This document shows, piece by piece, positions 14,705 to 58,779 of a DNA stretch of 64,000 nucleotides; position 1 is the stretch's first letter; each line of letters opens with the position of its first letter. The notes under the pieces were generated by a model. It worked only from the letters and a program-made list of their open reading frames with translations, was not told the origin of the DNA and did not search any database. Source of the stretch: Natrinema salaciae (lineage in GTDB: Archaea; Halobacteriota; Halobacteria; Halobacteriales; Natrialbaceae); contig NZ_FOFD01000001.1 of the NCBI RefSeq assembly GCF_900110865.1, positions 930,001 to 994,000 of the forward strand, read 5' to 3'. The translations under genes and the position numbers were made by a program.

Positions 14705-14940
14705 CGCTGCACCTCCTCGCCGTCGGTCAGTGACGGACAGACTCGGTTCGAGCCCGTCCGCTCGAGTCGGCGAGAACACCCCCGCTTGTGACCCGCTTCC
14801 GACTGGCCGTCGAGCAGGACAGTACACCGAGCACCGCACTCGTCACAGCGAAATTCGCGGCTTTTCGTCGGCAGCGGTGTGAGCCCCCGATTGATTCGGA
14901 GACGCTTCGCTTCCGTTTCGGAAAGCGTCACGCCGACCAC
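14701..14940 (-). CDS. Small zinc-finger protein, 79 aa
   Basis: A 79-residue protein. After a short N-terminal region (MVGVTLSETEAKRLRINRGL) comes FRCDECGARCTVLLDGQ followed by GHKRGC: a C-x2-C pair and a H/C pair that could bind zinc. It lies immediately upstream of, and overlaps by four bases, the HTH gene, and is 124 bases from the integrase start side. Small zinc proteins next to integrases are common in haloarchaeal elements and may help control excision, but that is an inference. Confidence 0.6.
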   Translation of the reverse strand: MVGVTLSETEAKRLRINRGLTPLPTKSREFRCDECGARCTVLLDGQSEAGHKRGCSRRLERTGSNRVCPSLTDGEEVQR

Positions 14941-15064
14941 CCCGTCAGGTATAGATTCCTTCTGACAGGTTTAATTCGTACGAAACCGCAATAATTAAGG
15001 TCAGAGTGGGGTCGGAGGGAATAAACTTGAGCTATTCTCGATGCTCCGTCGCTGACCGTAAGTG

Positions 15065-39506: not shown

Positions 39507-39535
39507 GTTTTTTCGCGCCTGACGGGTGAGGCGCG
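39507..39535 (+). repeat. Palindromic GGGTG element, copy a
   Basis: A T-run is followed by arms CGCGCCT (39514-39520) and AGGCGCG (39529-39535) around GACGGGTG. It lies 23 bases upstream of ATG 39559. The arms differ from the other copies but still pair perfectly, while GGGTG is retained. Confidence 0.7.
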
Positions 39536-39558
39536 ACCCCCGTGCTTCGAGAGAACCC

Positions 39559-40194
39559 ATGAGTACAGATCGACCGATCCAGAGCAAGCAACACCAGGAC
39601 CACCAACATGATTGCAATGACATCAGTGACCGAGAGCGACGCTATCCCGGCGACGTTGCTCGACTAAACGGGCACGAACTCGTCGCTATCGACGAGTGGC
39701 TTCCAGGCACGGAACCAACACCGTACGAGATCGACCTCACCGATGGTTTTGAGTACCGCACGCGGTACTGGCGCTGCCGCAACTGCGGCCAAGAACGAAA
39801 TCGTCGTGATGAGTTCATCGAGCACTGTGAGACGCCAGATCAACCAACTATACTCGAGGCCGGTGGCTACTCGATCGAGGATTCGCGAACCCGGCGTGCA
39901 TTGAGCGAGGAGATGGACGTCCGGTTCGCCAGGGTGGGATCCATCTACGAGGTCGTTAGCGAGAGCGGGAACACTTACGAGGTTGACGTTGAGACGGAGA
40001 CGTGTACCTGTCAAGATTGGGAACAACGCCAGCCGACCGGTGGTTGTAAGCATCTCAGACGTGTTGATCTCGAGATCCGAACTGGGATCACACCCGTTCC
40101 GGATGGGACATTCAATCGAGAAACCGTGAGGTCAACTGGTCGTCCGCTTGAGAAGGTTTGTCTCCCCCAAGAGGGGTGCGGGGGGCTCGACTGA
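39559..40194 (+). CDS. SWIM zinc-finger family protein
   Basis: A 211-residue protein from ATG 39559. A C-x2-C zinc finger (RCRNCGQERNRRDEFIEHC) precedes a SWIM-type motif near residues 140-170: YEVDVETETCTCQDWEQRQ then GGCKHLRRVDLE (C-x-C-x10-C-x-H). SWIM fingers bind nucleic acid or protein and occur in haloarchaeal plasmid genes. Its last codons (VCLPQEGCGGLD) are encoded by repeat copy b, so its natural C-terminus may have been altered by that element. Copy a provides its promoter region. Confidence 0.75.
   Translation: MSTDRPIQSKQHQDHQHDCNDISDRERRYPGDVARLNGHELVAIDEWLPGTEPTPYEIDLTDGFEYRTRYWRCRNCGQERNRRDEFIEHCETPDQPTILEAGGYSIEDSRTRRALSEEMDVRFARVGSIYEVVSESGNTYEVDVETETCTCQDWEQRQPTGGCKHLRRVDLEIRTGITPVPDGTFNRETVRSTGRPLEKVCLPQEGCGGLD
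40155..40185 (+). repeat. Palindromic GGGTG element, copy b
   Basis: The T-rich GGTTTGTCT is followed by CCCCC (40164-40168), AAGAGGGGTGC and GGGGGG (40180-40185). It sits inside the last codons of the SWIM gene and about 28 bases before the first ATG (40213) of the small-gene cluster. Confidence 0.65.
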
Positions 40195-43741: not shown

Positions 43742-43773
43742 AGATGATTCTGTAGATCGTAGTCGTCGGAAAA

Positions 43774-43833
43774 CCGCGATGTAAGGGCATCGCGGTGTCG
43801 GGCGCTGAGCGCCTTCAGGAGCTAGTGAACTCC
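43774..43833 (+). promoter_or_regulatory. Structured leader before RPA-like gene
   Basis: Three consecutive stem-loops: CCGCGATG/CATCGCGG (43774-43795), GGCGC/GCGCC (43801-43813) and GGAG/CTCC (43818-43833), the last ending one base before ATG 43835. The final stem contains GGAG, which could act as a masked ribosome-binding site. It could be a translational control leader. Confidence 0.5.
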
Positions 43834-43834
43834 A

Positions 43835-44722
43835 ATGTCAAGTAAGAACGTCTTCGGTAATGAGGTTTCGGTCAATGAACAGGCATCCGAAAAAGTGGAC
43901 GAAGCAGCGGTCGATGAAGATGGCTTTGAGGTGGTCAATGAGACGCCGGAGTTCCAGGCGACGGTGCAGATGGAGGTGCAGGCAAAGGTCGATGCAAACC
44001 ACCCGGACGGGATGGTTGAGACCACCGAAGAGCGAATCCACGGTGCGACCCTCGAACAGGAAGAGCGCATTCGGGCGCGAGAGGCCGAGCTGGAGCGCAT
44101 CAGAGCCCAGGCGGAGCTGGGGACGCAAGAAGGGCGGGAGAAGCGGACGCGAGATATCGCGGCGAAGCGGAGCGCTGAGCGGCGTGCTGAGTTCCAGAAG
44201 CGGGCGGCGAGCGTGGACCCGTGGGCGGACCCAGAGCGGAACGATCCTCGTGCAGAACTCACGCAGGAGCAGTTGGCAGCGGTGAACAAGCAATCGATGC
44301 GGCTGTCCGGGAAACTGGATGGGTGGTCGCGAGCGGCGATTGGTCGGCGGCTGGGTGAAGCCGTGGTCGGTGGGAAGGACCTGATGAGCGCGGTCGTCGC
44401 GGTGTTCGAGGAACTGGAGACGGCGCCGGGACAGGTGGTTCCCATCGGGAAACTTGAGGGCGTCAATCGCAAAGAGGTGAGCATCGAAGGTACTGTGACG
44501 CAACTGTGGGAGCCGTCAAGTCCGAGCATTGCTCAGGTCGGTCTCATCGAAGATGAGAGCGGGCGCACGAAGTTCACGAGCTGGAAAGCGTCCGATGTCC
44601 CGTGGATCGAAGAGGGCGAACGAGTTCGCATTCACGGAGCGGCGAAGAACTGGTACAACGGGCGCGTCTCGGTGGCTCTGACCGGCTGGACCACGGTCCA
44701 CTTCTCCGAGCGCGGTCGGTAG
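43835..44722 (+). CDS. RPA-like OB-fold DNA-binding protein
   Basis: A 295-residue protein. The N-terminal half is helical and charged, with a long coiled region (TTEERIHGATLEQEERIRAR and following). The C-terminal 90 residues form an OB fold: VSIEGTVTQLWEPSSPSIAQ, VGLIEDESGRTKFTSWKASD, GERVRIHGAAKNWYNGRVSV. This matches the single-stranded DNA-binding replication protein A-type proteins carried by haloarchaeal plasmids. It likely coats single-stranded DNA during transfer or replication. It has a long structured leader. Confidence 0.78.
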   Translation: MSSKNVFGNEVSVNEQASEKVDEAAVDEDGFEVVNETPEFQATVQMEVQAKVDANHPDGMVETTEERIHGATLEQEERIRAREAELERIRAQAELGTQEGREKRTRDIAAKRSAERRAEFQKRAASVDPWADPERNDPRAELTQEQLAAVNKQSMRLSGKLDGWSRAAIGRRLGEAVVGGKDLMSAVVAVFEELETAPGQVVPIGKLEGVNRKEVSIEGTVTQLWEPSSPSIAQVGLIEDESGRTKFTSWKASDVPWIEEGERVRIHGAAKNWYNGRVSVALTGWTTVHFSERGR

Positions 44723-44889
44723 TGGGAAGAATAGCCAGTCGGTGCAGGCTTCTTTTTTGCTGTGTGCCGGACCAACCCAAACCCCGCCGCCCCACCCTCC
44801 GCTCCGTGCTCGCTTCGCTGCGCGCGCAGCTACGACCTCCGATGCGGTTTATCTGGCGCCATGGGTGCCGGCGCAATTAGACCGCCAAG
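44723..44889. other. Short intergenic region
   Basis: It holds a T-run (44752-44758) after the RPA-like gene that may end transcription, followed by GC-rich sequence without a gene. Confidence 0.3.
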
Positions 44890-45288
44890 TGACAGAGACA
44901 TGGCGAATGTAACCACTGCGACGCGACATTCGAGACGGTCAACGGTCTCGGTGGCCAGACCTCGATCGGACGTGACGAACTCACAACAGAACTCCAACGG
45001 CTCGCCGATCACCTCTGTCGACCACCGACCCGTGCTGAGATGGAAGCAGACGGGACCTTTTCGTACTGCCCACCAAAATGAATTCGGCTCGTGGAGCGGT
45101 GCGCTCCGCTCAATCGATTTCCAGCAGTGCAAGAAGCCCAGGTTCCAGATGAGGTTCTCCTAGAAGCGATTCGGAACCTTGCTGATGAACTCGGACGCGT
45201 CCCCACCGCGCTGGAGATGGACGTGAAAGGTGCTCCCTCAGTAGGTACGCAAGTCCTGCACAGAGTCTTTGGTCCCCTCAATGGGTGA
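44890..45288 (+). pseudogene. HNH-repeat (homing-endonuclease-associated) protein remnant
   Basis: Three frames together give one protein: a finger-like HGECNHCDATFETVNGLGG, then ELQRLADHLCRPPTRAEMEA (first repeat), NEFGSWSGALRSIDF, and a second repeat VLLEAIRNLADELGRVPTAL ending VFGPLNG. The repeat pattern (L-x-x-L-A-x-x-L-x-R-x-P-T) is the homing-endonuclease-associated repeat. Frameshifts lie near 45077 (A-run) and near 45120. No start codon is in frame upstream. Confidence 0.6.
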
Positions 45289-45292
45289 GGGG
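45267..45292 (+). repeat. Palindromic GGGTG element, copy c
   Basis: CTTTGGT leads to CCCCTC (45274-45279), AATGGGT, GAGGGG (45287-45292). The element overlaps the stop of the HNH-repeat remnant and is followed 42 bases later by a truncated TFB start. Confidence 0.68.
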
Positions 45293-45334
45293 TTCACCGT
45301 GCTGGCGAATCTCCAGAAAAACCAGTGGCAAAAC

Positions 45335-45385
45335 ATGGCGATAAGAGATATCTACAAAACGAGCTTCGACGAGAATGAGCGCTAA
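45335..45385 (+). pseudogene. Truncated TFB gene start
   Basis: Sixteen codons (MAIRDIYKTSFDENER) then TAA. They match the start of the TFB gene at 47382 (MATRDIYESGFDEDIQ) in 9 of 16 positions, including RDIY and FDE. The same palindromic element lies upstream in both. I read this as the 5' stump of a second TFB gene whose remainder was replaced by the GmrSD gene. Confidence 0.6.
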
Positions 45386-45437
45386 CTCGATTCGGGTCTT
45401 CGCGTTTTTCTCGTAGAGACGGAAGTTGAGTGGACGC

Positions 45438-47123
45438 TCACTCTGATCCCTCTGAATTGTCCTCAGTTAGGACTGAATCGGCAGGCAGGTTCAACAGGTA
45501 AGCAGACTTCTTAATCAAGTAATTGCGGTGTGCCTGAATCGCTTCTGGAGACCAACCACCATAGTTTCCGCGAGCTACTCGCAGTGCTAAGTCAAAACTC
45601 GAACGCGGTTTACCCCGCCTCCCCTGATAGATAGCAGCTTTCTCATCGAATGGCTTCTGAGCTGCCTTTGCATTGAGATCGTACTGTAGAGGAATCAAAT
45701 TCCCAAGCGTGTTTCTCAGCTGACTTGCCTCCTCTCTACTGAAATTGTCTTCCCAGTAATCGTATTTTTCCATCGCAGAACCGTACGATTTGGGAAGCAC
45801 GTGTTCTATGTGCATTCCACCGCCTCTCTTTTTGATCTGCTCAACCTTCTGGGAGTCACTTAGACTGTATTCAATAGCAACCAGCAGGCTCTTGTGCCAC
45901 TTCTCATCTCCATATACATTATCAGAATACAGGCCGTCCCGAACCCTTTCCGGAATATTATCACGTTTTCTCTTACTCTCGATGTAGTCCTTGATCTCCT
46001 CCAAACTGGCCTCGTCACGAAGCAGAGTCAAGATCTTGATCGAGGGTATTTTGATTTTTTCGCTAGTATAATCTCCAATCCAGTAGGAATAATAAAACCC
46101 GATTAGCTCATCACGCAACTCGTCAAAGTAATCAACACCGTCCTTCTTAGCAGCAATAAGAATTGTTTTCCAATACAGAGTATGTGACAGATTTTCCAAG
46201 ATGAAGATCTCTTTGGAACCCGAGTTTTCGATCCCGTTATAGTTGTCCACGAAGCTCCGAATATCGTTGACAATTTCTTTAGGATCCTTTCCCTCAAACT
46301 CAGATTTTAGCTCCTGATATCTCGTTTCCTGTGCCTTAGACTGCTGGAGATACAGTCGGTACATCCCAAGAATGCTGTCTAGGGTATCATAATCATCATC
46401 GACCTTCGTAGTGATGTCCTGCCAAACCTCGATCACATCGTCCTTGTCTTCGTCATCCTTCAAATTGCTCAGCAGATAGCTCTTAGTGAGATCAGAGACC
46501 GTCAAATCTTTTCCACGAGTGTTGATAGTCTGGAAAAGCCTGACAGCATGTGCAAGATTATCGCTGATAATTCTAATTAGTTCGATATTCTGATCGACGA
46601 ACTCAAAGAAGTCGTTGAGATCTTCGTCTCTATCCCCGAACTTGACCTCCAGACAATCTATCAGGATTTCGGCAGCCTCGGTGTACCTGTTTTTCTCATC
46701 CAAGTCTATCGACTTGAGTACTGACTGTTCAAGATCAGTTTGCTTACTGGTCCTCAACCGCGGTTTCTCCAACGCCTGTTCATGGACTCTTCTCTGAACC
46801 CGTCTCTTGTTCCTATCGCTCAAGTAATCGTGGAAATGGTCGTTGAAAATCGCATAGAGAATTATTAGAGAGGTCATCCTCTGCTGTCCATCCAGTATAT
46901 CATAACGTGAATCACCGTCCTCCTTCACCAAAATGACAGAGCCGAGATAGTAGGGACTGTCTCGGTCCTCATTCCACGATTCATAGAGGTCATCAACTAA
47001 CTGCTCAATATGCGATCTCTCCCAGCTATACGGCCGCTGATACCGAGGAATTTGATACAAGTCATCCTCACCATCAAACAGATCCCGGCACTTCACCGGA
47101 TCCGGTTTGAAACTATGCTGCAT
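45438..47123 (-). CDS. GmrSD-type modification-dependent restriction enzyme (DUF262-DUF1524)
   Basis: A 561-residue single-chain protein. The N-terminal DUF262 domain shows YQIPRYQRPYSWERSHIEQL, YYLGSVILV and the nucleotide-binding DILDGQQRMTSLIIL; INTRGKDLTVSDLTKSYLL is also typical. The C-terminal DUF1524 nuclease contains an HNH-like HIEHVLPKSYG, RNTLGNLIPLQ and AKAAQKPFDEK. GmrSD-like enzymes cut modified (for example glucosylated) phage DNA using NTP. Its DNA is markedly AT-richer than the flanks. It is a lone leftward gene between two TFB starts, indicating a defence cargo insertion. It probably targets foreign DNA bearing base modifications, which is notable beside a DNA-modification island. 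Confidence 0.87.
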   Translation of the reverse strand: MQHSFKPDPVKCRDLFDGEDDLYQIPRYQRPYSWERSHIEQLVDDLYESWNEDRDSPYYLGSVILVKEDGDSRYDILDGQQRMTSLIILYAIFNDHFHDYLSDRNKRRVQRRVHEQALEKPRLRTSKQTDLEQSVLKSIDLDEKNRYTEAAEILIDCLEVKFGDRDEDLNDFFEFVDQNIELIRIISDNLAHAVRLFQTINTRGKDLTVSDLTKSYLLSNLKDDEDKDDVIEVWQDITTKVDDDYDTLDSILGMYRLYLQQSKAQETRYQELKSEFEGKDPKEIVNDIRSFVDNYNGIENSGSKEIFILENLSHTLYWKTILIAAKKDGVDYFDELRDELIGFYYSYWIGDYTSEKIKIPSIKILTLLRDEASLEEIKDYIESKRKRDNIPERVRDGLYSDNVYGDEKWHKSLLVAIEYSLSDSQKVEQIKKRGGGMHIEHVLPKSYGSAMEKYDYWEDNFSREEASQLRNTLGNLIPLQYDLNAKAAQKPFDEKAAIYQGRRGKPRSSFDLALRVARGNYGGWSPEAIQAHRNYLIKKSAYLLNLPADSVLTEDNSEGSE

Positions 47124-47324
47124 TATACAAACCAGATCAAACTACAGTTCTTTAATCATTTCCACAAAGTCCCCAACACATATTCTGACCGGGCGAAAGC
47201 ACAGAATCCCCTATATCGATAGTAACTGTTCGGGGGTGCATTCCCGAACGGTATTTGAGGAGCTCAGTGCAGGTATCGTCGAAGGTTCAATTTATCAATC
47301 GGCCCAAACCAGCTCGCCCGCGGT

Positions 47325-47354
47325 TGTTTATTCCCCCTGAGAGGGGTGCGGGGT
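47325..47354 (+). repeat. Palindromic GGGTG element, copy d
   Basis: GTTTATT is followed by CCCCC (47333-47337), TGAGAGGGGTG and CGGGG. It lies 28 bases before ATG 47382. The T-rich part could be a TATA box, placing the palindrome between it and the transcription start. Confidence 0.7.
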
Positions 47355-47381
47355 GCAGACGAGACGCCTCGCAAACTACCA

Positions 47382-48305
47382 ATGGCGACGAGAGACATCT
47401 ACGAAAGCGGATTCGACGAAGACATCCAGACGACTACAACTGCTTGCCCCGATTGTGGTGGCAGTATTCGACGGACCGGCCATGAAACGACCTGTGAGGA
47501 CTGTGGACTCATCCTCGAAGAGAGCCGACTCGATCGAGGGCCCGATTGGGGGCGAAGTAACGGGCAGCAATCGAAGAAACGGACTGGCGCACCACTGACG
47601 CCGACGCGTCACGATCGCGGTCTGTCCACTGAAATCGGCTATCACCGAGATGGGAACGGAAACACGCTTTCGGGCCAGAAGCGACGACAACTGAACCGAC
47701 TGCGTCGTGAACAGTCTCGAGCACAGTGGCAGTCGAAAGCGGAACGGAACCTGGCGTATGGCCTCAGTGAAGTCCGGCGGATCGTCGCTCGCCTCGGTCT
47801 GGCGGAGAGTATCCGTGACCAGGCGTGCACGCTCTTCCGACGGGCCTAATCCGAGGGGCTCTGTCACGGTCGATCGCTCGAGGCGGTAGCCGCAGCCAGT
47901 GTCTATGCAACAACTCGGTGTAACGGGCTCGGGCGATCACGGGCAGAAATCGCTGCCAGTGCTCGCTGTGATCAAGGGAGACTCACCAACGCCTACGATG
48001 CGATAAACGTTGATCTCGAGTTGCCGACACAGCCAATATCGGCAACCGATCGGATTCCAAAACTAGCAACAGAGCTCGAGGTTCCGGACCAAGTCCGTCG
48101 ACGGGCAGTTGAGCTCGCACAGCGAGCGAGTGAAGCTGGACTCACCGTTGGCCGTCGGCCGAGTGGCGTCGCAGCAGGGTGTCTGTATCTCGCCGCTGAG
48201 CAAGCTGGACTGTGTCTCTCACAGCGCCAGATCGCCGATACTGCAGGAACATCGCCGAATACACTTCGAAATCGACGGGACGAGCTACTCGAGCTCGACG
48301 CCTGA
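47382..48305 (+). pseudogene. tfb: Transcription factor B (TFB) paralogue with in-frame TAA
   Basis: A 307-codon reading frame with one internal stop. The N-terminus has a zinc ribbon (CPDC at 22-25, CEDC at 38-41). Then follow TEIGYHRDGNGNTLSGQKRR (B-finger/linker), and a first cyclin fold (AYGLSEVRRIVARLGLAESI). A TAA at codon 156 (47847-47849) interrupts within that fold; the frame continues unbroken as SEGLCHGRSLEAVAAASVYA, CDQGRLTNAYDAINVDLE and a second cyclin fold to 48305. A CAA-to-TAA change explains it. If not read through, only the zinc ribbon and half a fold are made. TFB paralogues select promoters in haloarchaea. Confidence 0.8.
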
Positions 48306-48367
48306 TCCGATCGGAAAGAACCGGATAATGTGGGTAGCGAGGCTCCGCTCGAACGGTGACTCGTGTA

Positions 48368-48396
48368 GGTTTTTTCACCCCCTGAGGGGTGAGGGG
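48368..48396 (+). repeat. Palindromic GGGTG element, copy e
   Basis: GGTTTTTT is followed by CACCCCCT (48376-48383), GAGGGGTG and AGGGG (48392-48396). It lies 34 bases before the ArdC gene ATG (48431). It offers two alternative hairpins. Confidence 0.72.
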
Positions 48397-48430
48397 CGTT
48401 CTCAGAAGTGAGCGTCCGTCATCGAAACCA

Positions 48431-49369
48431 ATGACTACGAGCGACTGTTCGCAGGTGTCCTTCGAAAACTCGGACACCAGACGCGATGAGATGCACAGCG
48501 CGATGGAAGCCTGGGCCGAAGAACTCGTCGAGGAAGTCGACGACGCAGTCTCGAGTGAGCAGTTCCAGGAGTGGCTCAATATGCAGAGTCGCTTCCACGA
48601 CTACTCCTACCGAAATACGCTCTTGATCAACCGGCAGTGTCCGCATGCGATTCGCGTCGCCGGCTATCGGACTTGGCAGACCGAATTCGATCGCCATGTG
48701 AAAGAAGGCGAAAACGCGATCTGGATCTGGGCACCGATCATCGCGAAACAGTGCCCTGAATGTGAAAACTCGCCCTCATACCACGGGCGAAGCGACTGTG
48801 AATACGATGAGACGCCACCTGAAGAGTGGTCGAAAGGTCTTGTCGGCTTTCGGCCAGCACCAGTGTTCGACATTTCCCAGACTAAAGGAGAGCCACTGCC
48901 CGAACTTGAGACCGAAGCGACTGGAGATGCCGATGAACTGTTATCAGTACTCCTCGAAGCGGCCTCGATACTCGACATGAATGTGGAAGTCGTCTCCCAA
49001 CCAGAGTGGACTCACGGCGATGCCAAGGGCGTCTGTCAGTATCGGTCTCCTGCAGAGCGACCACTACTCGAGATTCGAGCTCGTGAGAACAACGCTGATC
49101 TCGCTGTGACGCTCGTCCACGAATACGCTCACGCACTCCTACACAGTGGCACCGACGACAAGACCGAGCGCTCGAAACGCGAACTCGAGGCAGAGGCAGT
49201 CGGCTACATCGTCGGACGGTACTTCGGGATAGATACGAGCGGGTCGGCGTTCTATCTGGCCGCATGGGAAGGTGACGAGCCAGAGGTGATCTTCGACCGG
49301 CTTGAGCGGATCAGTTCGACTGCCCAAGAGATCATCGACGTCGTCAACAAGGTGACCGACGATGAGTGA
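48431..49369 (+). CDS. ArdC-like antirestriction/ssDNA-binding metalloprotease-fold protein
   Basis: A 312-residue protein. Residues 20-110 form the ArdC N-terminal ssDNA-binding region (WLNMQSRFHDYSYRNTLLIN, VAGYRTWQTEFDRHVKEGE, AIWIWAPI). A zinc-ribbon-like insert follows (CPECENSPSYHGRSDC). The C-terminal zincin has HEYAH at 230-234 and a later Glu (RELEAEAVGYIVGRYFG). ArdC proteins are carried by conjugative plasmids and protect incoming DNA from host restriction. Its promoter region carries copy e. The HalOD1 gene overlaps its end by eight bases. Confidence 0.85.
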   Translation: MTTSDCSQVSFENSDTRRDEMHSAMEAWAEELVEEVDDAVSSEQFQEWLNMQSRFHDYSYRNTLLINRQCPHAIRVAGYRTWQTEFDRHVKEGENAIWIWAPIIAKQCPECENSPSYHGRSDCEYDETPPEEWSKGLVGFRPAPVFDISQTKGEPLPELETEATGDADELLSVLLEAASILDMNVEVVSQPEWTHGDAKGVCQYRSPAERPLLEIRARENNADLAVTLVHEYAHALLHSGTDDKTERSKRELEAEAVGYIVGRYFGIDTSGSAFYLAAWEGDEPEVIFDRLERISSTAQEIIDVVNKVTDDE

Positions 49370-49580
49370 TCGACCGCTCCTGGTCGAGATCATCAATGCA
49401 CTCGAAGAACAGGGCCTTGACCGGGACGAGTACCAACTCCAACAGGTGATTGATGTCGAAGCCCTCGAACGACTTGTAGACTCAACGGGCCCACACACTG
49501 ATCTCGAGATTTGGTTCTCAATTGGTGAGCTCCGTGTAATAGTAACACCATCCGATGTCGCCGTAATCAAGGTGTCGTAA
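49362..49580 (+). CDS. HalOD1 domain protein, coupled to ArdC
   Basis: A 72-residue stand-alone HalOD1 protein (MSDRPLLVEIINALEEQGLD, then VIDVEALERLVDS, then a beta end LEIWFSIGELRVIVTPSDVA). Its ATG overlaps the end of the ArdC gene by eight bases (ATGAGTGA), so it is translationally coupled. It is distinct from the HalOD1 protein at 3292. Its role is unknown. Confidence 0.78.
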   Translation: MSDRPLLVEIINALEEQGLDRDEYQLQQVIDVEALERLVDSTGPHTDLEIWFSIGELRVIVTPSDVAVIKVS

Positions 49581-50067
49581 CGGGAGTGCGCCGAGTCAGA
49601 CTAACAGTCAGTCCAATTCTCAGTAACCGCTCGGTGCAGTTTGTGTGGTGCCAGACCGGTCGACTACGACAGAACGTGCGACGCTCTCGGAGTTCGCTAC
49701 GAACCAGACGACTGACTCGATGCCAGCCAGTCAGCTATTGACCGCTGAGATCGTGACGATGACAGCTGACAGGCGGGTTGCAATCTCTCAAGTGAAAGCT
49801 ATTATCGTCCACTTTTGCCAGCTTAAATATTTCTATCATTAGATTGTGTGGATTCTTACTAGACTAGTATATCGTTTTTATTCACCCAGAAGGGTGAGGT
49901 GATAAAGTGAATTCACATAGTGGTTCAGGAACTGAAATCATCAGAACTCGAGTGGGATATCAGTATCAGAGCTAGACGGAGTACTCATTATCAACCCAAA
50001 TAGCAGTTCAAAGTCCATGACTCACCATCAACTATATACAAGTGCACCAACGATCAGGGATAAGAGC
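49581..50067. other. Intergenic region with element f and promoter of the Dpd-like operon
   Basis: GC content drops sharply from about 49800. Palindromic element f lies at 49873-49902. CTATATACAA at 50030-50039 is centred about 30 bases before ATG 50068 and is the best TATA box for the DUF6884/DpdA operon, pointing to a leaderless start. No gene is supported in between. Confidence 0.5.
49873..49902 (+). repeat. Palindromic GGGTG element, copy f
   Basis: CGTTTTTAT leads to TCACC (49882-49886), CAGAAGGGTGA and GGTGA (49898-49902). It is the most divergent copy, with AT-containing arms that still pair. It lies upstream of the DpdA-like operon, farther from the start than other copies. Confidence 0.62.
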
Positions 50068-50529
50068 ATGTCGACGCTACTTATTCAATCTTGCTCAAAG
50101 TCTAAAAAACAGACAGATGAGCCCATCTCTGCTATGGAATTGTACTCGGGATACTTCTTCAAAATCATAAAAAAGTCGAGAAGAGAAGAGACGGTAAATT
50201 CAAACATTGATGTGGGAATTCTGTCTGCAAAATATGGATTTGTCAAGTCTGATGAAAAGATAACCGCTTATGATCGCCAGATGAACTCTGAACGGGCAAT
50301 GGAAATTGGATCAACAATGAGAGAAGAACTTCGAAATTACATATCACACGAGGGCTATGACCGAATTATCATCAATGCTGGAAAGGAATACCGGAAGGCG
50401 ATAAATGGATTCGATGATGGCCTGTCTGTTGACATATACGAGATTACTGGTGATGGCCTTGGGTTAAAAGGCCGATCGCTGAAAAGATTCTTGAGAGGAG
50501 ATGAATCCGGTATTATGAGGGTGAACTAA
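50068..50529 (+). CDS. DUF6884-like protein, partner of DpdA-like enzyme
   Basis: A 153-residue protein from ATG 50068 (MSTLLIQSCSKSKKQTDEPI). Conserved features include C-S-K-S-K near the N-terminus, MELYSGYFFKII, GILSAKYGFVKSDEKITAYD and a late strand YDRIIINAGKEYRKAI, the pattern of DUF6884 proteins. These often neighbour TGT-like DNA-modifying genes. Its stop overlaps the ATG of the DpdA-like gene (TAATG), so they are surely co-expressed. Biochemical role not established here; ATG 50017 gives a longer N-terminus. Low GC relative to the window. Confidence 0.72.
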   Translation: MSTLLIQSCSKSKKQTDEPISAMELYSGYFFKIIKKSRREETVNSNIDVGILSAKYGFVKSDEKITAYDRQMNSERAMEIGSTMREELRNYISHEGYDRIIINAGKEYRKAINGFDDGLSVDIYEITGDGLGLKGRSLKRFLRGDESGIMRVN

Positions 50530-51767
50530 TGTCCGAATCAGTTATATCATCTATCGATTTCGAGGTGACTTCGACGGCTGGAGATGCTCGAGCAGGGTCA
50601 TTATCAATCAGAGATACAGTAATTGAAACCCCTAATCTCTTCCCCGTGCTGAATTTCTACGGAGGAGGGACGATAAATAGCAACTACGGAGGCGGAATTC
50701 ATCGGACTGTCAAGGAATTCATGATCGGCCATGAGCGGATTAACGGCGGTGATTATTCCAAGTTCTTTGATGGAGTAATGACATCCGTTTCGTCACTGAC
50801 TGACTACAATATTACCAGAGAAAGGTATGATGATTATGTGTCACAGCCAATCAAAGAGCGTGATGTGTTTTCTCCCTTTTCTGGCATATTATTTATTGAT
50901 TCTGGGGGATTCAAATTCCTCAGCAGTGATGAGCTTGATGGGAGCAATTTCCAGATTGAAATAGATCAAGAGAAAGTTTATGAGATCCAGCAGAAGCTGG
51001 GTGCGGATATAATTGTCAATCTTGACCGACCGATTTCGCCTGACGATACGCATAACCAGCGTATCGAAAAAGCCCAGCAAACTGGAAAGAACATCGCGAA
51101 GTTCCTTGAACTTTCATCTGATTTTCGTGGGGCCCGATACCTAACACTTCACGGATACAACTATTCGATGATGGATGAATTTCTTACTGAAATTACTCGC
51201 TATACTAGCGCTGAAACGCTTCGATCAGCTTTTGATGGAATCGCCCTTGGAAGTCTTGTTCCGAAGAAGGATGATCGGAACGCGCTGATTGATGCCGTTA
51301 TTGACTGTCGTGCCGTTCTCGAAGATTGGGGATTTGAGGAATTACCGCTTCATGTTCTTGGAATCTCGAGCCGAGCAATTCCACTTCTCGTCGCACTCGG
51401 AGTAGATACCTTCGACTCGTCAACATACCTTCAAACTGCAATAAACGGAGGGTATTGTACGTCGCTGATGGAGACAGTAGACGTCTCCGAAGCAAATCCT
51501 AAACAGTGTGACTGTCCAGTCTGTTCGTCAGAATACTTGAGAGAGTGGATGCTAGGAGATGCACCATACCAAAAAGATATGCTGGGAGCAGTTGCGATGC
51601 ATAACTTAATAATTCAGAAACGTTCGATCTTCGAAATACGCGACCGAGTCAGACGCGGTGAGACGGAACCACTAATTGAGTACATCGAATCAACCGTGGC
51701 ACAAGATAAGCCAACGAGAGAACACGCGCATCGGGTTGTCAACCATTCGCTTGGAGGGTACTTCTAA
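50529..51767 (+). CDS. dpdA: DpdA-like 7-deazaguanine DNA base-exchange enzyme (TGT family)
   Basis: A 412-residue TGT-fold protein. Signature pieces in order: FIDSGGF (123-128) like the DSGGFQ of tRNA-guanine transglycosylases, IVNLDRPIS, GIALGSLVPKK (active-site loop), GVDTFDSSTY with likely nucleophile Asp296, and the zinc site C327-x-C329-x2-C332 with His358 (CDCPVC, AMHN). It lacks the PUA domain of archaeal tRNA enzymes, and its context is DNA-processing genes, as for DpdA proteins that place 7-deazaguanines in DNA. Substrate would be preQ0 made by the host archaeosine pathway; no synthesis genes are in the window. It overlaps both neighbours by one base (TAATG). Confidence 0.82.
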   Translation: MSESVISSIDFEVTSTAGDARAGSLSIRDTVIETPNLFPVLNFYGGGTINSNYGGGIHRTVKEFMIGHERINGGDYSKFFDGVMTSVSSLTDYNITRERYDDYVSQPIKERDVFSPFSGILFIDSGGFKFLSSDELDGSNFQIEIDQEKVYEIQQKLGADIIVNLDRPISPDDTHNQRIEKAQQTGKNIAKFLELSSDFRGARYLTLHGYNYSMMDEFLTEITRYTSAETLRSAFDGIALGSLVPKKDDRNALIDAVIDCRAVLEDWGFEELPLHVLGISSRAIPLLVALGVDTFDSSTYLQTAINGGYCTSLMETVDVSEANPKQCDCPVCSSEYLREWMLGDAPYQKDMLGAVAMHNLIIQKRSIFEIRDRVRRGETEPLIEYIESTVAQDKPTREHAHRVVNHSLGGYF

Positions 51768-53332
51768 TGAGAAAAAATCCAAAAGTCAACGAAGTAAACG
51801 AATTTCTTGAGATTGCCAGCGATTTCGAAGATCCACTCGAGGTAATCCGAGAATCACTATCGAACGCATACGACGCAAACGCTTCGAACGTCGAAATTGA
51901 AATCAGAAGCCGTGAGATGGGGTCTGATATCATTATCGATGACGACGGCGACGGGATGAATCAGCGCGACCTCGAGTCATTTTTCGACTTAGGGAATTCT
52001 CGAAAGACAGATTCGATTGGGTACAAGGGCCACGGTACGAAAATCTTCTACAAGAGTGATCGCATCGTCGTCAATACTGCTTCTGATGAGGCGAACCTCC
52101 GTGCAGAGATGGACAAGCCTTGGGAGAAGCTTAACCAGAGAGAGCTTCCGCAGTATGAGGTAACCGAAACTCCAGTTAGGAAAGGGAACACTGGTACGAG
52201 GATTCGAATTCGAAACTTCCGATCCGGACAAGGCTTCGATCCAGAATCACTCACCTATAATAAGATTGAACACTACCTGAAGTGGAAAACGATTGCTGGA
52301 TCGACGGCATATCTGTTCGATGACGAAGATCGGGAGATGGACATCACCGTAAAGTTGGGTGATGAAATCGACGATTCCAGGCCAAAGCTCGAAACGACAA
52401 CTCGGTTCAAATTCCCCGAGGAACAACTCGAGCCAGATCGGTCGTCCGAGTTCCCAGCCGAACGGATGTGCAAGCACTACAAACCAACTGAAATTGAAGT
52501 AGAATACGAGGGTGGGACAACGACGTTACAGATCGTTGGTATGGTCGGTGGGAAAGCCGCCCGAAACGAGCTACCGACCTACGGTAAACACTCCGCACAG
52601 TTCGGTGTCTGGCTAGCGAAAGATCACATCAAGGTTGAGCGATTGAACGAGGCAATTTCGCATGACAACGAGTTCCTCCACTTCTTCTTCGTTGTCAACT
52701 GCCAATACATTGAACTCTCAGCAAACCGAGAGTCTATCCGGAATAAATCCAGTCCTGTGTACCAACGGCTTACAGAGGAAGCCGAATATTACCTCTCCAA
52801 GGTCGCTCAGGATCCATGGTTCAAGGAGTATCTCGAGACCCGGCGGGATGCCGAAATCAAGCGTCGTGCCCGAAACCGCCGAAGCTCGTTGAAAGACCGA
52901 CGAGAACGCATCGAATCAGGGCAAGCGCTTGAGCCGACCAACCGGACGGAAGTCTTGCTCACACTCGAGCGTGCCAACAGCAAATCAGATGCTTCGACGA
53001 TCACTGTCGAGGATTTCGACCCCAACGCCGACGTTCACGCAATAGTGAGACAAGGTGGTAAACTCAGAAACGCAGCTGTACATCATTCGCTGACGGATCA
53101 CTTCGAAGATGATCTTACATTCGAGGAAGTCGATCTCATCATCTGCTGGGAGTATGGCGATCCCACGACGCTGCGTGAGTACGAACGAACGGGCTATCTT
53201 GGTGGCGAGGTTGAGTTCCAGCTCGAGAATGATGGGCTCGTCTACGAAGACGATGGACAGTCTTTCATCGAAATTCTCTGCCTGAATCAAGAATCCGATA
53301 AAGTGACCCAGCAAGCGGTCATCAGCGACTAA
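51767..53332 (+). CDS. GHKL-type ATPase (HSP90/MORC-like) of the DNA-modification operon
   Basis: A 521-residue protein. Bergerat-fold motifs are clear: E29-x3-N33-x2-D36 (ESLSNAYDA), D-x-G-x-G at 58-63 (DDDGDG) and GYKGHG at 85-90. The next region (GNTGTRIRIRNFRSGQGF) and YGKHSAQFGVWLAKDHIKVE fit a S5-like transducer as in MORC-like or topoisomerase-like ATPases. A basic helical segment (EIKRRARNRRSSLKDRRERI) could bind DNA, and the C-terminus is an alpha/beta domain (VDLIICWEYGD) that may be nuclease-like. ATP-driven dimer closing on DNA is the family mechanism. It is coupled by TAATG to the DpdA-like gene. Confidence 0.8.
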   Translation: MRKNPKVNEVNEFLEIASDFEDPLEVIRESLSNAYDANASNVEIEIRSREMGSDIIIDDDGDGMNQRDLESFFDLGNSRKTDSIGYKGHGTKIFYKSDRIVVNTASDEANLRAEMDKPWEKLNQRELPQYEVTETPVRKGNTGTRIRIRNFRSGQGFDPESLTYNKIEHYLKWKTIAGSTAYLFDDEDREMDITVKLGDEIDDSRPKLETTTRFKFPEEQLEPDRSSEFPAERMCKHYKPTEIEVEYEGGTTTLQIVGMVGGKAARNELPTYGKHSAQFGVWLAKDHIKVERLNEAISHDNEFLHFFFVVNCQYIELSANRESIRNKSSPVYQRLTEEAEYYLSKVAQDPWFKEYLETRRDAEIKRRARNRRSSLKDRRERIESGQALEPTNRTEVLLTLERANSKSDASTITVEDFDPNADVHAIVRQGGKLRNAAVHHSLTDHFEDDLTFEEVDLIICWEYGDPTTLREYERTGYLGGEVEFQLENDGLVYEDDGQSFIEILCLNQESDKVTQQAVISD

Positions 53333-53339
53333 GTCGATA

Positions 53340-53440
53340 GGTGAGGTACCAAGTGCGGTGGTTGGGTTGCCTTCGTAGCGGACGTGATTGTCGTAGAGGT
53401 AACCGAACAGGTTGACCAGATCACTCGCACCGTCGAAATT
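53340..53440 (-). pseudogene. Possible end of a DDE-type transposase (minus strand)
   Basis: The minus strand reads NFDGASDLVNLFGYLYDNHV then GNPTTALGTSPIDL, resembling the last residues of some integrase-core transposases (Y-x-N-H near ALG-x-x-P). It is very short and could be chance. It lies directly after the ATPase gene. Confidence 0.3.
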
Positions 53441-53491
53441 ACATTCATATAATAACAAATAATATTCGATATTTTCTAAGACAATCTTCGC

Positions 53492-53785
53492 GTGAGAACA
53501 CACCGACGGAACGCGCGTGTCCTCGCGGCGTTTCTGCACCAATGGTGCCGCGGTCGCCCGCTGGAGCGGGCTGACTGCGGCCCCTGGTACGACTGGCCGC
53601 TCGAACTCCTCGCCTGCGACTACGAGCGCGAAACCTGGGGAAATCGCTCGCTCATCGAAGTCTGGTTCGGAATCTTCGAATACCGAACCAGGCGCTTTTG
53701 GCACCGATTTCCCCACGATAGCACAACTGAATCAACTAGATCGTGGCTCACAGCTTTCGCAACCCACCACAATACGACGGTCTAA
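53492..53785 (+). pseudogene. C-terminal remnant of IS6-like transposase
   Basis: The frame contains GPWYDWPLELLACDYERETW, GNRSLIEVWFGIFEYRTRRF and FWHRFPHDSTTESTRSWLTA, the C-terminal part of an IS6-type DDE transposase (the Glu in NRSLIE is the last catalytic residue). The N-terminal catalytic aspartates are absent. It is debris between the DpdA-like operon and the first helicase gene. Confidence 0.7.
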
Positions 53786-53844
53786 CCTTGACATCCTCCA
53801 GGAATTACCAGAATCTATTAGTGAGGTCGTAGCAACGAAAGGGT

Positions 53845-56800
53845 ATGGATTATGCTGACAGACATACGGATTTTTCTCGATTCGATGCATCTCTTCAAAC
53901 CCTTCTGCAAGGCATCGTTTTCAATAGGCAACGGTGGGGGGACGAGGACGATGCTGCATTGGTGACGGACGCGATCAAATATCACCAGCGTCCCGTTAAG
54001 CGCCCGGACCGTCGACCCTACACCGGGGGAGACGAGTATATCCGTGAGGTCTTGGAGGAAATTCTCGGCTTTGACGAAACTATTCCGTTTCAGGAACGCT
54101 GTTGGGAGCGGCTGAACGAGATGCGGACTGCCCGGACGGAAGAAACTTCATCACAGGCTGCTATTCTGTCAGCGCCGACCGGGTTCGGGAAGACAGAGGG
54201 ATTCGCCGGCCCCATTTTCCACGATTTAGCGACAAACCAGGGCCGAGGCTTCGGTAAAATCGTCATCGTCTATCCTCGTAACGCACTACTTGAGGATCAA
54301 CTTGAACGGTTCCTTGTGACGATGGAAGAAATGCGGTCACAGTACGGGTCGGACATCTCTATTGGTATTTACAATGGTGACGTCCCACAGGACAACAGCG
54401 GCATCAAATACTCATCGCTGGTGGATTGGGGTGAATTCCGGATCGCACAATGGACTGGAGGAGATGAGCCGGTCCCGCTCGAATTCACTTATGACGATGC
54501 TGATAAGACATATACGCTCGAAGCGCAATCGCTCGAAGGGCCTACTTTTGATGAATCTCAAATTAAACTCTCTCGGAAGTCGGTCCGCGGTGGCAACGGC
54601 GGGAATCCTCCTGATATCCTCTTAACCACCATCAATTCGCTTGAAAATTTTGCGGTCAAGCCTAATTACGATATTATCGACGCATATCGGACGTTTGTCT
54701 TCGACGAGGTGCATCTGTACCGCGGCACGTACGGAGCCCACGCATCGAATGTCATTCGCAATACCAAGCGGTCGATCGAAGAGCGTGTCGATGACGAGAC
54801 GGGGTTACTGTTCGTCGGGTCAAGTGCGACAATTGACAAACCGAAATCGTTCGGGAGCGACATTTTCGATATCGATCGCGGCGATATCTCGGTTATCGGA
54901 ACGGATTCAGGAGATATGCAGGATTCCGATGACACGGAGCACTTCCACTTTGTCACGTCGAATGAGGACGTCGCTACAAGTTCCACGTTTATTCAGCAGA
55001 TTCTGTTGTTTGCGCACGGTCTTCTCGAAGAACGGAACGGCCGTCCACGAAAGAAGGCGCTTGCATTCATCGATAGTGTCAGCCAAGTAAACCAACGCCA
55101 CTTTCAAATCCGCGATTTTGAAAACGCTTCACGATGGCAGTACCACGATGAAGACGAGGATGATTGGGCGGCTGTCGCCACTGAAACGCCATACCTCAAC
55201 TCCGATCCAGTCGGGACAACTCCCGGTCACGAGTTAATTGATGACGACCTCACGACGCAACCCACATCCGCCGACCTGCGTCTTCGGGCAGACGAATTCG
55301 GCGATACTGATCTAATTTTGAGTACGTCACTGTTGGAGGTGGGAATTGATATACCTGCTATCAAGGTCATTAGCCAGTACCGAGCCCCGTGGGAGATGTC
55401 GCAGTTCGTGCAGCGAATTGGCCGAGCTTCACGGAAGGAAGGGAACGATGCTCACTTCCTTATCGTCCTGGGAGATGATGCCGGTGATCGAAGTCTCTTC
55501 CACCGGGCTGATACCTTCCTTGACCCAGAAATTACCACGCCACTGAACGTCGACAACGAGATTCTGGAATGGATCCATGACCAATTGTACGAGGCATTCG
55601 AAACCGTCTATCGGATCCGGAGTGCGGCAAATCAACCATCACTAAATCGGCAACGAGAACTGTTTATTGAACACTTCCTCCAAAATTCCTCCGAAGAATC
55701 TTTCGAGGACTTTGCTAACTTTATTTTTGGACCGTCTAGTGAACTCTCAACATTGCTCCGACAGAAAGTTGTTGCTCCGAATTCCCTGCAGGATCTTGAA
55801 TCAGTTCAACAAACATATAATGTGCTCGACCATATCCAACAAGACGCGCTATTGTCCAATGTAGCCTCGCTGGTGAGGGAACCAGCCCCTCGCGTAACTC
55901 TCCAAACAGGAAGCCTGAACGGTCTGTCTCAGAGAGTCAACAGTGCCATTCAGAGGACTATCTCAGAGGCAGAGACAGTCATGGATAAGGCCACTCCTCA
56001 GAATCAGTCTGCGGAGGATACAGTTGAAGACGTTCGTGAGAAGCTCGGCCGAGCATCGGACATCTTGGAGGACGAGCAGTACGATCGTCGCGACCGATAC
56101 GACCAGCTTGATGACCTGTTCAACGAAATCAACAGCGAATTAGTCGGCGTCGCCGATAACCTCGAGGGGGTTACCAAGTCCTTTCCCTTCGACTTGGGTC
56201 TGGAAGAAGTCATCGCTGCCGCGCAGGAAGCACGCACCATTCGTAGCGACGACGACATCGAAGAGAAACGCCAGCGATGGCAGCGGATCTATTTCCTGAA
56301 ACGGTCGCTACAAGAGTACTACTGTTTCGAGAATCAACGATTCGAAGACGGAAGGGTATATGGCCACCTCATGGTGCCCGCAATCAAAGCTCTTCTACGG
56401 GCAATCTATTTCTACCATCGCGCGGGTAACCTCGGTAATCAGCGTGCAGAGCTTGAGCCGCCACACTTCGTTCCCACGTCGTATTTCGGCGAAGCTGGCG
56501 AGACATTTTCGGTAGTCCCGGAAGACGAAGGGAGCGAAATTGGGGAGGACGACAGTGTCGATGCACTCTATGAGAACCGATTCAAAAGCGATGACGACGA
56601 TGAAGATGAAGTTGAGCAAGGGGACGTCCCGCTGACGAAGCTCTTTTTCGAGTATGCTCCCTATATGTCAAAGTACCTCTCTGACGGGTCTCTGCAGATG
56701 TTCAATCCTCCTGTTGAGGAGGCACCCATTGATGCTACAGAAGACTACTACTTCGATGTCTCCGGCCTCTCTACTGAACCCGGGGAAGAAGTAATTACAC

Positions 56801-58059
56801 CAAGTACGCTGCCTGTCAAAAGCGTCACCGACCAATCTGGTGATCAGGCTCGTGCTATCGTTTGGTACTGTGAGGAGTCTCTCTATGTTGGGCGCGATAC
56901 GTGGGACGCCGGTCCGGAGGGATCGGATACGATGGCTTATGGGCAACTCCATTCGAATCCACAAGTCGGAACCTCGTTTGAGCCTGAACGTGAGGTTACA
57001 GACGAATTAGGGGTGGAGTATATCTCTGCAAACGTTCGGCTGGACAGTGTCGACCTCACTATTACCCCAGCATATCCGATGGGAGACCCGACTGGCGATG
57101 GTACGACGCCGTTCCGGACCGATCGCGACAATCAACAAGAGGTCGACATAGGCTTCAAGCAGCCACTTGGGTTCACGCTCAACACCCGGGGAGCTATCTG
57201 GAACTTGGACGAGTTCATTGACATTCTCGTTGGCGACGAGGTCTTTGAGCGCGAATTCGCACGTCATAATCCGGACGCCGACATTGAAGAAGTCGCCCAC
57301 TATACTGCAGCCCATTTCTTGCTCGAGATTATCTCTGACATCAGTGGCGTTAACCAGGCACAGCTCCTCTATGGGGTCGACATCGAGAATCACCGAGTCG
57401 CTGTCTTCGAGCACGCTGAAGGTGGGCAAGGCATCGTCGACCTCTTTGAGCAGGTACGCACCCGAACGGATCACGAACGCATGTTGCGTGCCATCAACCG
57501 GGTAGCGGCGAATCCCCAGCTAATCAACGGCTCACTCTGGGCTGACGAGGACTTTGTCCAGGCTGTTCAAGACGATGATCAGGACCAGATTGATCAGTAT
57601 GTTCGAGACAGAGTTGTGGTCGCGACGGACAGAATTGTAGACGATGTCAAAGAACAAGTTCACCACACTGTCGACCAGCTTGATGAGTTTGCCGACGTGA
57701 CCGGTGTGCCTCAGGACGTCGCTTATGAGATACGCTACATGGCTGCCCAAATGCAGTTCGAGGATGGAAAACACGACCCAATCGATACATTGGTGGCTAA
57801 CACGCCGGACAGCGTTCTGGCAGAAGAACTCCGGAATCTCATAGTGGACCCTGATGTCGACGACTGCGTGGAGAACCTCCACCTCGCGTACAGTATTGTC
57901 GAAGATCAGAGCGCTGTGTTGAGTAACGTCGTGCTTGAGCGACTTCACGATTACGTGACCGAACAGACGAACAATGACGACTGGGATGAGGAAGTCTTAG
58001 GCCGTGAGGCGCTTCCGGGGGCAATCATCGATGGTTCGAACATTTTCCATTCACTCTGA
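53845..58059 (+). CDS. DEAD/DEAH helicase with DUF1998-like region (module 1, DpdJ/DrmA-like)
   Basis: A 1404-residue helicase. Walker A SAPTGFGKTE (about 109-118), DEVH box (FVFDEVHLYRG, about 286), LLEVGIDIP and QRIGRASRKEG (motif VI, about 522). Middle part is helical; the C-terminal region contains HYTAAHFLLEIISDISGVNQ and FEHAEGGQGIVDLFE (about 1189), resembling DUF1998 regions of DISARM DrmA and Dpd-type helicases. Cys/His clusters found in the paralogue at 59204 are gone (WTGGD in place of CWCG; CEES in place of CPEC). The last 29 bases overlap the phospholipase-D gene. Probably an ATP-driven DNA translocase for defence. Confidence 0.85.
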   Translation: MDYADRHTDFSRFDASLQTLLQGIVFNRQRWGDEDDAALVTDAIKYHQRPVKRPDRRPYTGGDEYIREVLEEILGFDETIPFQERCWERLNEMRTARTEETSSQAAILSAPTGFGKTEGFAGPIFHDLATNQGRGFGKIVIVYPRNALLEDQLERFLVTMEEMRSQYGSDISIGIYNGDVPQDNSGIKYSSLVDWGEFRIAQWTGGDEPVPLEFTYDDADKTYTLEAQSLEGPTFDESQIKLSRKSVRGGNGGNPPDILLTTINSLENFAVKPNYDIIDAYRTFVFDEVHLYRGTYGAHASNVIRNTKRSIEERVDDETGLLFVGSSATIDKPKSFGSDIFDIDRGDISVIGTDSGDMQDSDDTEHFHFVTSNEDVATSSTFIQQILLFAHGLLEERNGRPRKKALAFIDSVSQVNQRHFQIRDFENASRWQYHDEDEDDWAAVATETPYLNSDPVGTTPGHELIDDDLTTQPTSADLRLRADEFGDTDLILSTSLLEVGIDIPAIKVISQYRAPWEMSQFVQRIGRASRKEGNDAHFLIVLGDDAGDRSLFHRADTFLDPEITTPLNVDNEILEWIHDQLYEAFETVYRIRSAANQPSLNRQRELFIEHFLQNSSEESFEDFANFIFGPSSELSTLLRQKVVAPNSLQDLESVQQTYNVLDHIQQDALLSNVASLVREPAPRVTLQTGSLNGLSQRVNSAIQRTISEAETVMDKATPQNQSAEDTVEDVREKLGRASDILEDEQYDRRDRYDQLDDLFNEINSELVGVADNLEGVTKSFPFDLGLEEVIAAAQEARTIRSDDDIEEKRQRWQRIYFLKRSLQEYYCFENQRFEDGRVYGHLMVPAIKALLRAIYFYHRAGNLGNQRAELEPPHFVPTSYFGEAGETFSVVPEDEGSEIGEDDSVDALYENRFKSDDDDEDEVEQGDVPLTKLFFEYAPYMSKYLSDGSLQMFNPPVEEAPIDATEDYYFDVSGLSTEPGEEVITPSTLPVKSVTDQSGDQARAIVWYCEESLYVGRDTWDAGPEGSDTMAYGQLHSNPQVGTSFEPEREVTDELGVEYISANVRLDSVDLTITPAYPMGDPTGDGTTPFRTDRDNQQEVDIGFKQPLGFTLNTRGAIWNLDEFIDILVGDEVFEREFARHNPDADIEEVAHYTAAHFLLEIISDISGVNQAQLLYGVDIENHRVAVFEHAEGGQGIVDLFEQVRTRTDHERMLRAINRVAANPQLINGSLWADEDFVQAVQDDDQDQIDQYVRDRVVVATDRIVDDVKEQVHHTVDQLDEFADVTGVPQDVAYEIRYMAAQMQFEDGKHDPIDTLVANTPDSVLAEELRNLIVDPDVDDCVENLHLAYSIVEDQSAVLSNVVLERLHDYVTEQTNNDDWDEEVLGREALPGAIIDGSNIFHSL

Positions 58060-58501
58060 AGAGATTGCCAAATTCCTCGGGACGGCCTTCCTCAACGCGG
58101 ATCAAATGGCCGTCGTGTCCCCATGGGTCAGTGATATCACCGTTCGATTCCCTGACTCTGACCGCATCTCGGACCAGAGGCTTCGGTTTTCCGAAACTGT
58201 TCAGATACTTGATGTCGATCTCGAGGTGTTCGTGGACCCAAACCAGAATCATCACAACAGACGGAAACCGACCTCGCTTCTCCCGCGGATTAGTGACCAC
58301 GTGTCGATTCACGAAGTTGACGGGCTGCATGCGAAAGCAATCGTGACTGACAGGGTACTCTATCAAGGGTCAGCAAACATGACGTATAACGGACTGAACG
58401 TCAATATCGAGTTGTGCGATATTCGAGAAAACGAGTATGGGGATGTCGACCAGTTTCTTGAACATCAGCTGGGAATTTCTCCGGATCGGCAGTCCATCTG
58501 A
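58031..58501 (+). CDS. Phospholipase-D-like nuclease (module 1, DpdK/DrmC-like)
   Basis: A 156-residue PLD-fold protein starting MVRTFSIHSEEIAKFLGTAF. The HKD motif is visible: LHAKAIVTDRVLYQGSANMT (H-x-K-x4-D then G-S-x-N). One motif per chain means a dimer builds the active site. VVSPWVSDITVRFPD matches the N-terminal core of the paralogue at 58780. It overlaps the helicase by 29 bases, the same as module 2. Associated phospholipase D-like proteins in DISARM and Dpd loci act with their helicase; here it likely cleaves or binds DNA. Confidence 0.83.
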   Translation: MVRTFSIHSEEIAKFLGTAFLNADQMAVVSPWVSDITVRFPDSDRISDQRLRFSETVQILDVDLEVFVDPNQNHHNRRKPTSLLPRISDHVSIHEVDGLHAKAIVTDRVLYQGSANMTYNGLNVNIELCDIRENEYGDVDQFLEHQLGISPDRQSI

Positions 58502-58516
58502 GGTCGTGAAACGACC
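58502..58516 (+). terminator. Hairpin just after module 1
   Basis: GGTCGT and ACGACC separated by GAA, starting one base after the stop of the phospholipase-D gene. Archaeal terminators usually need a T-rich tail, present weakly downstream (ATCATATTTTAGATT), so this is only a probable terminator. Confidence 0.4.
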
Positions 58517-58779
58517 CTCGGGAATAATCATATTTTAGATTGAGTCTACAATGAAACGATCATCTCCTCGCGGACACTCGACTGGGAAGGGACCGCTGGG
58601 ACGTCCTACTAAATCTCAACAACAAAGGGTTTCAACAGACCCATCTGACTCAAATCGCTAACGGCTATTAACAACATCTTGTATGAATTTCTCCATATAT
58701 GATATAATCTCACGGGGACGTAGCGGAGTAGACGTGCTTCACTCCCACCCACAAAAGGACAAGGAGCGCTGCTTTCTGT
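58517..58779. other. Gap between convergent modules
   Basis: Roughly 260 AT-richer bases between the two phospholipase-D gene ends. No gene is supported. ATTTTAGATT near 58530 and TTCTGTTTAAAAATC near 58778 are AT-rich runs usable for termination from either side. Confidence 0.35.

Follow-up and report, generated by a model that had tools for sequence, protein, structure and literature searches.

Gene content of the locus

The window, i.e. the whole stretch of 64 kb that was analysed (G000:C1:930001-994000), is part of a 4.86-Mb haloarchaeal genome. At the locus studied here, a core gene for an OB-fold, presumably DNA-binding protein (43835-44722, plus strand) is followed by a conserved GC-rich sequence (44784-44839, plus strand). 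The OB-fold assignment comes from a Pfam match that is weak and below the curated cut-off, and relatives are annotated as OB-fold or DNA-binding proteins. Downstream lies a decayed gene with in-frame stops and homing-endonuclease-associated repeats (about 44860-45270, plus strand); its part 44947-45221 matches the region of an intact Halorubrum gene whose ORF carries Pfam HNH_repeat (E 8e-62). An Rfam search of 44600-48600 gave no match, and a tRNA search of the 64-kb window found none.

Two TFB starts had been predicted here, each with a palindromic GGGTG element in front, and both were found as described (ATG at 45335 and 47382). The first element occupies 45274-45292 (plus strand) in a leader that resembles those of type-B TFB genes. 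The second is at 47333-47335, within the predicted promoter of the second TFB (47327-47353, plus strand), where it follows a TATA-like TTTATT. Similar leaders had also been noted; the two share the element but are in other respects of different TFB leader types. A third element (48376-48396, plus strand; pattern at 48376-48378) precedes an ArdC/ImmA-IrrE-like gene (48431-49369, plus strand), which Pfam and the comparison of loci identify as a conserved partner of type-A TFB genes. Farther to the right, PADLOC and Pfam point to a Dpd-like cluster (50017-63292) with genes for a DUF6884/DpdC-like protein, a TGT/DpdA-like protein, a HATPase, two DpdJ-like helicases and a DpdK-like PLD protein; one helicase and PLD pair is on the opposite strand.

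The GmrSD gene and its recurring unit

The AT-rich leftward gene between the two TFB starts was correctly recognized as GmrSD. It is encoded on the minus strand (45438-47123), its GC content is 0.453 against 0.57-0.62 in the neighbouring genes, and the single chain contains both GmrSD_N (Pfam E 5.4e-35, DGQQR motif in the translation) and GmrSD_C of the HNH type (Pfam E 2.8e-18, HIEHVLPKS in the translation, an E-H motif). Most likely, it is an ordinary modification-dependent type IV restriction enzyme; the activity expected of such enzymes is cleavage of modified (glucosyl-HMC) DNA. Since dN/dS between the copies in the window and in the loci G159 and L129 is 0.072-0.084, the gene has been maintained under purifying selection.

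Among 292 genomes, an even draw from a larger group of the class, five have a GmrSD match, the window's own genome included; the closest, G159 (92% protein identity), comes from another family of the same order. A scan of GTDB contigs gave two loci, L129 of Halorubrum salinum (92%) and L130 of Halosimplex salinum (74%), and no close GmrSD was found in a plasmid collection, where the best match had 47%. The predicted virus-defence gene of the window is thus also found in another archaeal family.

In the window, G159 and L129 the gene is part of a recurring unit that consists of a TFB fragment, a transposase remnant, GmrSD, and a TFB promoter with the TFB start. The window is 88% identical to G159 over 45384-47423 and 85% identical to L129 over 45367-47773. 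To the left of GmrSD, a TFB fragment fused to the same transposase remnant runs from codon 6 to about 64 in G159 and from codon 24 to about 64 in L129. To the right, both have a leader of the window type and a TFB start, and an OB gene is found farther upstream in each. The Halosimplex GmrSD has neither TFB nor OB gene nearby. The order of stump, cargo and TFB occurs in two of the 57 TFB loci that we tabulated (window and G159), and L129, which was examined separately, is the third case.

The left TFB fragment and the transposase remnant

The ORF that starts with ATG 45335 has 16 codons (MAIRDIYKTSFDENER followed by a stop) and had been described as a TFB stump. The stretch 45234-45373, which runs from the last part of the decayed gene through the leader to TFB codon 13, is 85% identical to Natrinema G023:C3 (E 1.9e-38), where the TFB body continues directly. 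For the 39 coding bases of this type-B fragment (45335-45373, plus strand), 34 are identical to the TFB start of G023:C3; elsewhere in the window, 31 match at the second TFB start and at most 23 at every other place. A chance match, which would have spoken against the original prediction, is thereby ruled out. However, TFB sequence accounts for no more than about 13 of the 16 codons. From about 45366 on, the sequence matches DNA adjoining a transposase ORF in L015 (85% over 68 bp, 45366-45433, sense on the minus strand), so the remaining codons and the stop derive from the transposase remnant. The ORF beside the matched DNA in L015 has a DDE_5 match below the curated cut-off, and we take the remnant to be of the IS701 type.

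The left junction is thus a fusion of TFB and transposase remnant, rather than a crossover between two TFB genes. In all three loci with the unit, the join lies at a GACGAG-like microhomology. The shorter stump of the window can best be accounted for by a deletion that occurred later, between short repeats of the GACGAG kind at codons 12-13 and about 63. We also considered a breakpoint separate from that of G159 and L129, but the deletion between the two copies would be simpler. If a circle with a TFB 5' end had integrated in the Campbell manner, stump and TFB body should derive from a single gene. This is less attractive, since the stump in the window is of type B and the body of type A, and a further exchange would be needed.

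TFB stumps without cargo had been named as possible evidence against cargo exchange. There is one such case, L083, in which a 45-codon TFB stump lies next to an empty slot, and a stump alone is therefore not diagnostic of cargo exchange.

A mosaic TFB gene at the right junction

The second TFB gene (47382-48305, plus strand; protein start MATRDIYESGFDEDIQ...) is not one intact gene. It is split by an in-frame stop at 47847-47849, a position with a sense codon in relatives, into a part with the zinc ribbon (47382-47846) and a part with the TFIIB repeat (47850-48305). Intact copies are present in relatives. Because the TFB has decayed in the window and in several relatives, its function is not needed for the slot described below.

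Natrinema plasmid TFBs fall into two types, A (MATRDIYTT.FDEDVQTT...) and B (MATRDIYE..FDEDVRTESS...). We examined the sites that separate the GmrSD unit, as represented by G159 and L129 where they agree, from 26 TFB-A loci; of 31 loci first classed as A, five were omitted (L075, L087, L098 and L100, which are truncated or disrupted, and L086, which was reclassed as B). In the leader, the window is unit-like at 11 sites, A-like at three and different from both at five. TFB bases +0 to +27 are unit-like at all four sites. The picture is reversed further downstream, where the window is A-like at 12 sites, unit-like at one and different at two between +42 and +120, and A-like at 18 of 20 sites (two unit-like) between +120 and +330. 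As the informative sites switch from unit-like to A-like, the crossover can be placed in TFB codons 9-15 (47406-47426, plus strand). Downstream, 47382-49938 is 92% identical to the Natrinema TFB-A/ArdC block in L004.

Another case is L065 (G004:C84). Compared with L071 and L078, its TFB-B gene is near-identical over the first 54 bases, which in L065 and L071 are the same at every position, and the leaders are unrelated. L065 shows that leaders were also swapped a second time where a TFB gene begins.

A variable slot between OB-fold and TFB genes

The original prediction regarded the interval between the two TFB starts as a site of cargo exchange. For comparison with related loci, 63 matches to TFB starts were collected from the genus; six were unlike TFB starts and were dropped, leaving 57 (two in the window and 55 fetched). 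An OB-fold homologue is present in 26 of 29 Natrinema genomes. Upstream of 30 of 56 TFB starts (the 55 and the second one of the window), an OB gene lies on the same strand within 18 kb. Seven of these 30 slots, the window included in the total, are empty, with 41-55 bp between the edges, and 23 are filled with 0.4-17.7 kb whose contents are mostly unrelated between loci (the slots of L064 and L089 were read for their last 6 kb only). Shared flanks, unrelated contents and empty sites are what characterizes a cargo hotspot. The slot as such was borne out: in related elements, the corresponding position is taken by other cargo. Its left border had been misplaced: the slot is wider than the TFB-to-TFB interval and extends from the OB-fold gene to the TFB promoter.

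The cargo includes genes for SIR2-like, QueC/QatC-like (two loci), SMC/LmuB-like ATPase, PD-(D/E)XK and MazE/PIN proteins, and further genes for EF-1alpha, cation efflux, an amidohydrolase, IS4 and an integrase. Several matches are thus defence-like, alongside many non-defence genes. A tyrosine recombinase gene lies inside one slot. The EF-1alpha (tuf) gene is carried on the Natrinema versiforme plasmid pNVE500 (L109:4102-5373 / L128:2557-3828).

In 13 loci, one of them in the window, the conserved GC-rich stretch at the left edge ends at 44837-44839, and homology between loci stops there. A chromosomal copy of the OB flank in Natrinema salinisoli is 97% identical up to exactly this edge. We had considered the stump as left border, and rejected it since the homology edge lies at the flank of the OB gene. 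A 32-mer pattern from the left border has 12 matches in the genus, all of them just 3' of OB genes or OB fragments. Most copies of the stretch, in the window and in the OB 3' flanks of relatives, contain the palindrome GCTGCGCGCGCAGC. The stretch may be a terminator, a transfer origin or a recombination site. On the Natrinema salinisoli chromosome, G018:C1:782012-786367 contains a remnant of the mobile element seen in the window, with an end region and an integrase fragment near the OB gene; it matches 14651-15635 and 43757-44839 of the window at 93-97% identity.

At the right edge, identity within TFB-A loci and within TFB-B loci falls to background about 60 bases 5' of the ATG (comparisons without L067, L081, L083 and G159, and in the pair tests also without L107, which has too little upstream DNA). 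Among 117 same-type TFB pairs that are 88% or more identical in the first ~450 bp of the coding sequence, 76 have unrelated upstream DNA (47 of 84 A pairs and 29 of 33 B pairs), although the pairs share blocks and the counts are not independent. Homology extends into the leader in 66 of the 76, and for 65 of these it stops between -31 and -80. There are 13 mutually unrelated upstream blocks among 29 A loci and 15 among 22 B loci. In the extreme, pairs with up to 95% identity in the coding sequence and fully identical leaders have unrelated DNA directly upstream.

Probable exchange of the slot contents

We consider it probable (roughly 0.72) that a family of haloarchaeal conjugative-type plasmids and integrated elements has a cargo slot, seen here in one of its states, which is exchanged by recombination in the flanking genes, with one join of the insertion-sequence type. 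The slot would lie between the core OB-fold gene on the left and the plasmid TFB promoter on the right, often with the ArdC-like gene next. Since the OB flank and the TFB leader and start are homologous between different elements, recombination there may swap the intervening DNA, so that the cargo is replaced and the flanks stay. On the right, the exchange would take place where the elements are homologous, in the TFB leader and the 5' part of the coding sequence. In the window, the GmrSD unit, also present in Halorubrum, was probably joined in this way to a resident Natrinema TFB-A/ArdC block at TFB codons 9-15, and the left TFB fragment with its scrap of transposase would be left over from an earlier join of the insertion-sequence type, which is part of the unit. 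The predicted recombination at duplicated TFB 5' regions thus fits the second TFB and fails at the left junction. It should be noted that TFB pieces flank the cargo on both sides in the window, G159 and L129 only; the other filled Natrinema slots lack this arrangement, which speaks against slot exchange, as do the stump of L083 next to an empty slot and the Halosimplex GmrSD with no TFB or OB gene nearby.

Insertion-sequence traffic alone could also be imagined: carried by a transposase-bearing element, GmrSD would have entered a TFB gene, of which adjacent deletions spared just the stump, and the second TFB would be a mere neighbour. The microhomology joins between stump and transposase remnant are in keeping with this, as are the IS genes in some slots. 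We nevertheless think it improbable, since it explains neither the switch from unit-type to TFB-A sequence within the second TFB nor the empty and alternative slots with the same edges.

The GGGTG element and the slot edges

In the 64-kb window, the element pattern has five matches where 0.18 are expected, one of which, at 1580, looks like a chance match. In the form TTTATYNCCCCN(3-8)GGTGNNGGG it was found 42 times in 17 of 29 genomes, and a reversed control gave no match. Besides its position in front of TFB genes, similar elements lie 5' of the ArdC-like gene, of a gene in L031 and of an HNH-like gene in L032, and on plasmids of other genera they precede HNH, DUF6166 and TFB genes. A variant with compensating arms (GCGCC/GGCGC, 39511-39534) occurs at the start of an ORF (39526-40194) for which a Pfam search gave no match and which we take to be SWIM-like.

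The suggestion that the element marks the site of cargo exchange did not hold up. Site-specific recombination at the element would account for conserved TFB and ArdC modules that start at the element in many loci, and for near-identical copies in front of unrelated genes. On the other hand, the element is found just 3' of a TATA-like box, as expected of a promoter element, the slot's left edge bears another conserved sequence and no paired element, and the crossover in the window lies away from it, in TFB codons 9-15. Across the loci compared there was no sign of the element acting as an exchange site, and we regard this explanation as very unlikely; in its strong sense it was rejected because the element is a likely promoter feature of unrelated genes. 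We read it instead as a predicted promoter or operator element common to plasmid genes. More speculatively, and with considerable doubt, promoters of the TATA-plus-palindrome kind might form a regulon read by element-encoded TFBs (TFB, ArdC-like and HNH/DUF6166 genes), with promoter and TFB start serving in addition as a homology handle by which cargo, defence genes among it, passes between elements in different families of haloarchaea. If the regulon exists, mobile elements bring their own initiation factor for the genes expressed first.

The sharp homology edge at -60 could just be the limit of a selected promoter, and functional constraint may contribute to the slot edges. That constraint is the whole explanation, with a conserved promoter and OB flank and between them neutral intergenic space drifting by indels, is the least probable reading: the edges do coincide with the hairpin-like stretch downstream of OB and with the TFB promoter, but slow drift would not give edges as abrupt as those beside identical TFB leaders and the 97% identical OB flank.

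Comparison with known systems

With this slot, an accessory-gene hotspot has been mapped on archaeal mobile elements; its edges are clear, some of its alleles are empty, and there is traffic across families. It is also a clear instance of a gene for a general transcription factor as recombination anchor. Reading OB-to-TFB slots across haloarchaeal plasmids should quickly bring to light archaeal defence genes that are so far unknown, as many ORFs in the slots are matched by neither Pfam nor PADLOC. Among open-licence papers, we found no description of a haloarchaeal OB-to-TFB slot and none linking GmrSD with haloarchaea or haloarchaeal plasmids with ArdC.

Integron gene cassettes are interchangeable cargo at a fixed place. 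Unlike in integrons, no cassette-end repeats were seen at the slot and its two edges differ from each other; integron-like recombination sites at both ends of the cargo were not seen, as the 32-mer of the left edge occurs only after OB genes or fragments and the right edge is a promoter.

ArdC is a leading-region gene. The ArdC-like gene on this conjugative-type element can be compared with the leading-region anti-defence genes of bacterial plasmids (PMC11541004).

Both the GmrSD family and hotspots of variable defence cargo are already known (PMC4619093 and PMC9122126). Single-chain GmrSD enzymes combine GmrSD_N, which has DGQQR, and GmrSD_C, which has an E-H motif of the HNH type, and the family is said to ride mobile elements in defence islands (PMC4619093). 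The window's GmrSD agrees with them in having both domains and motifs in one chain; this member is haloarchaeal and lies beside a TFB promoter. P2-like phages and P4-like satellites have hotspots of variable genes that include antiviral systems (PMC9122126), and the slot is similar in placing such genes on mobile elements. Unlike these hotspots, it is carried by conjugative-type plasmids and integrated elements of archaea, has a gene for a general transcription factor as its right anchor, and holds cargo that goes beyond antiviral genes.
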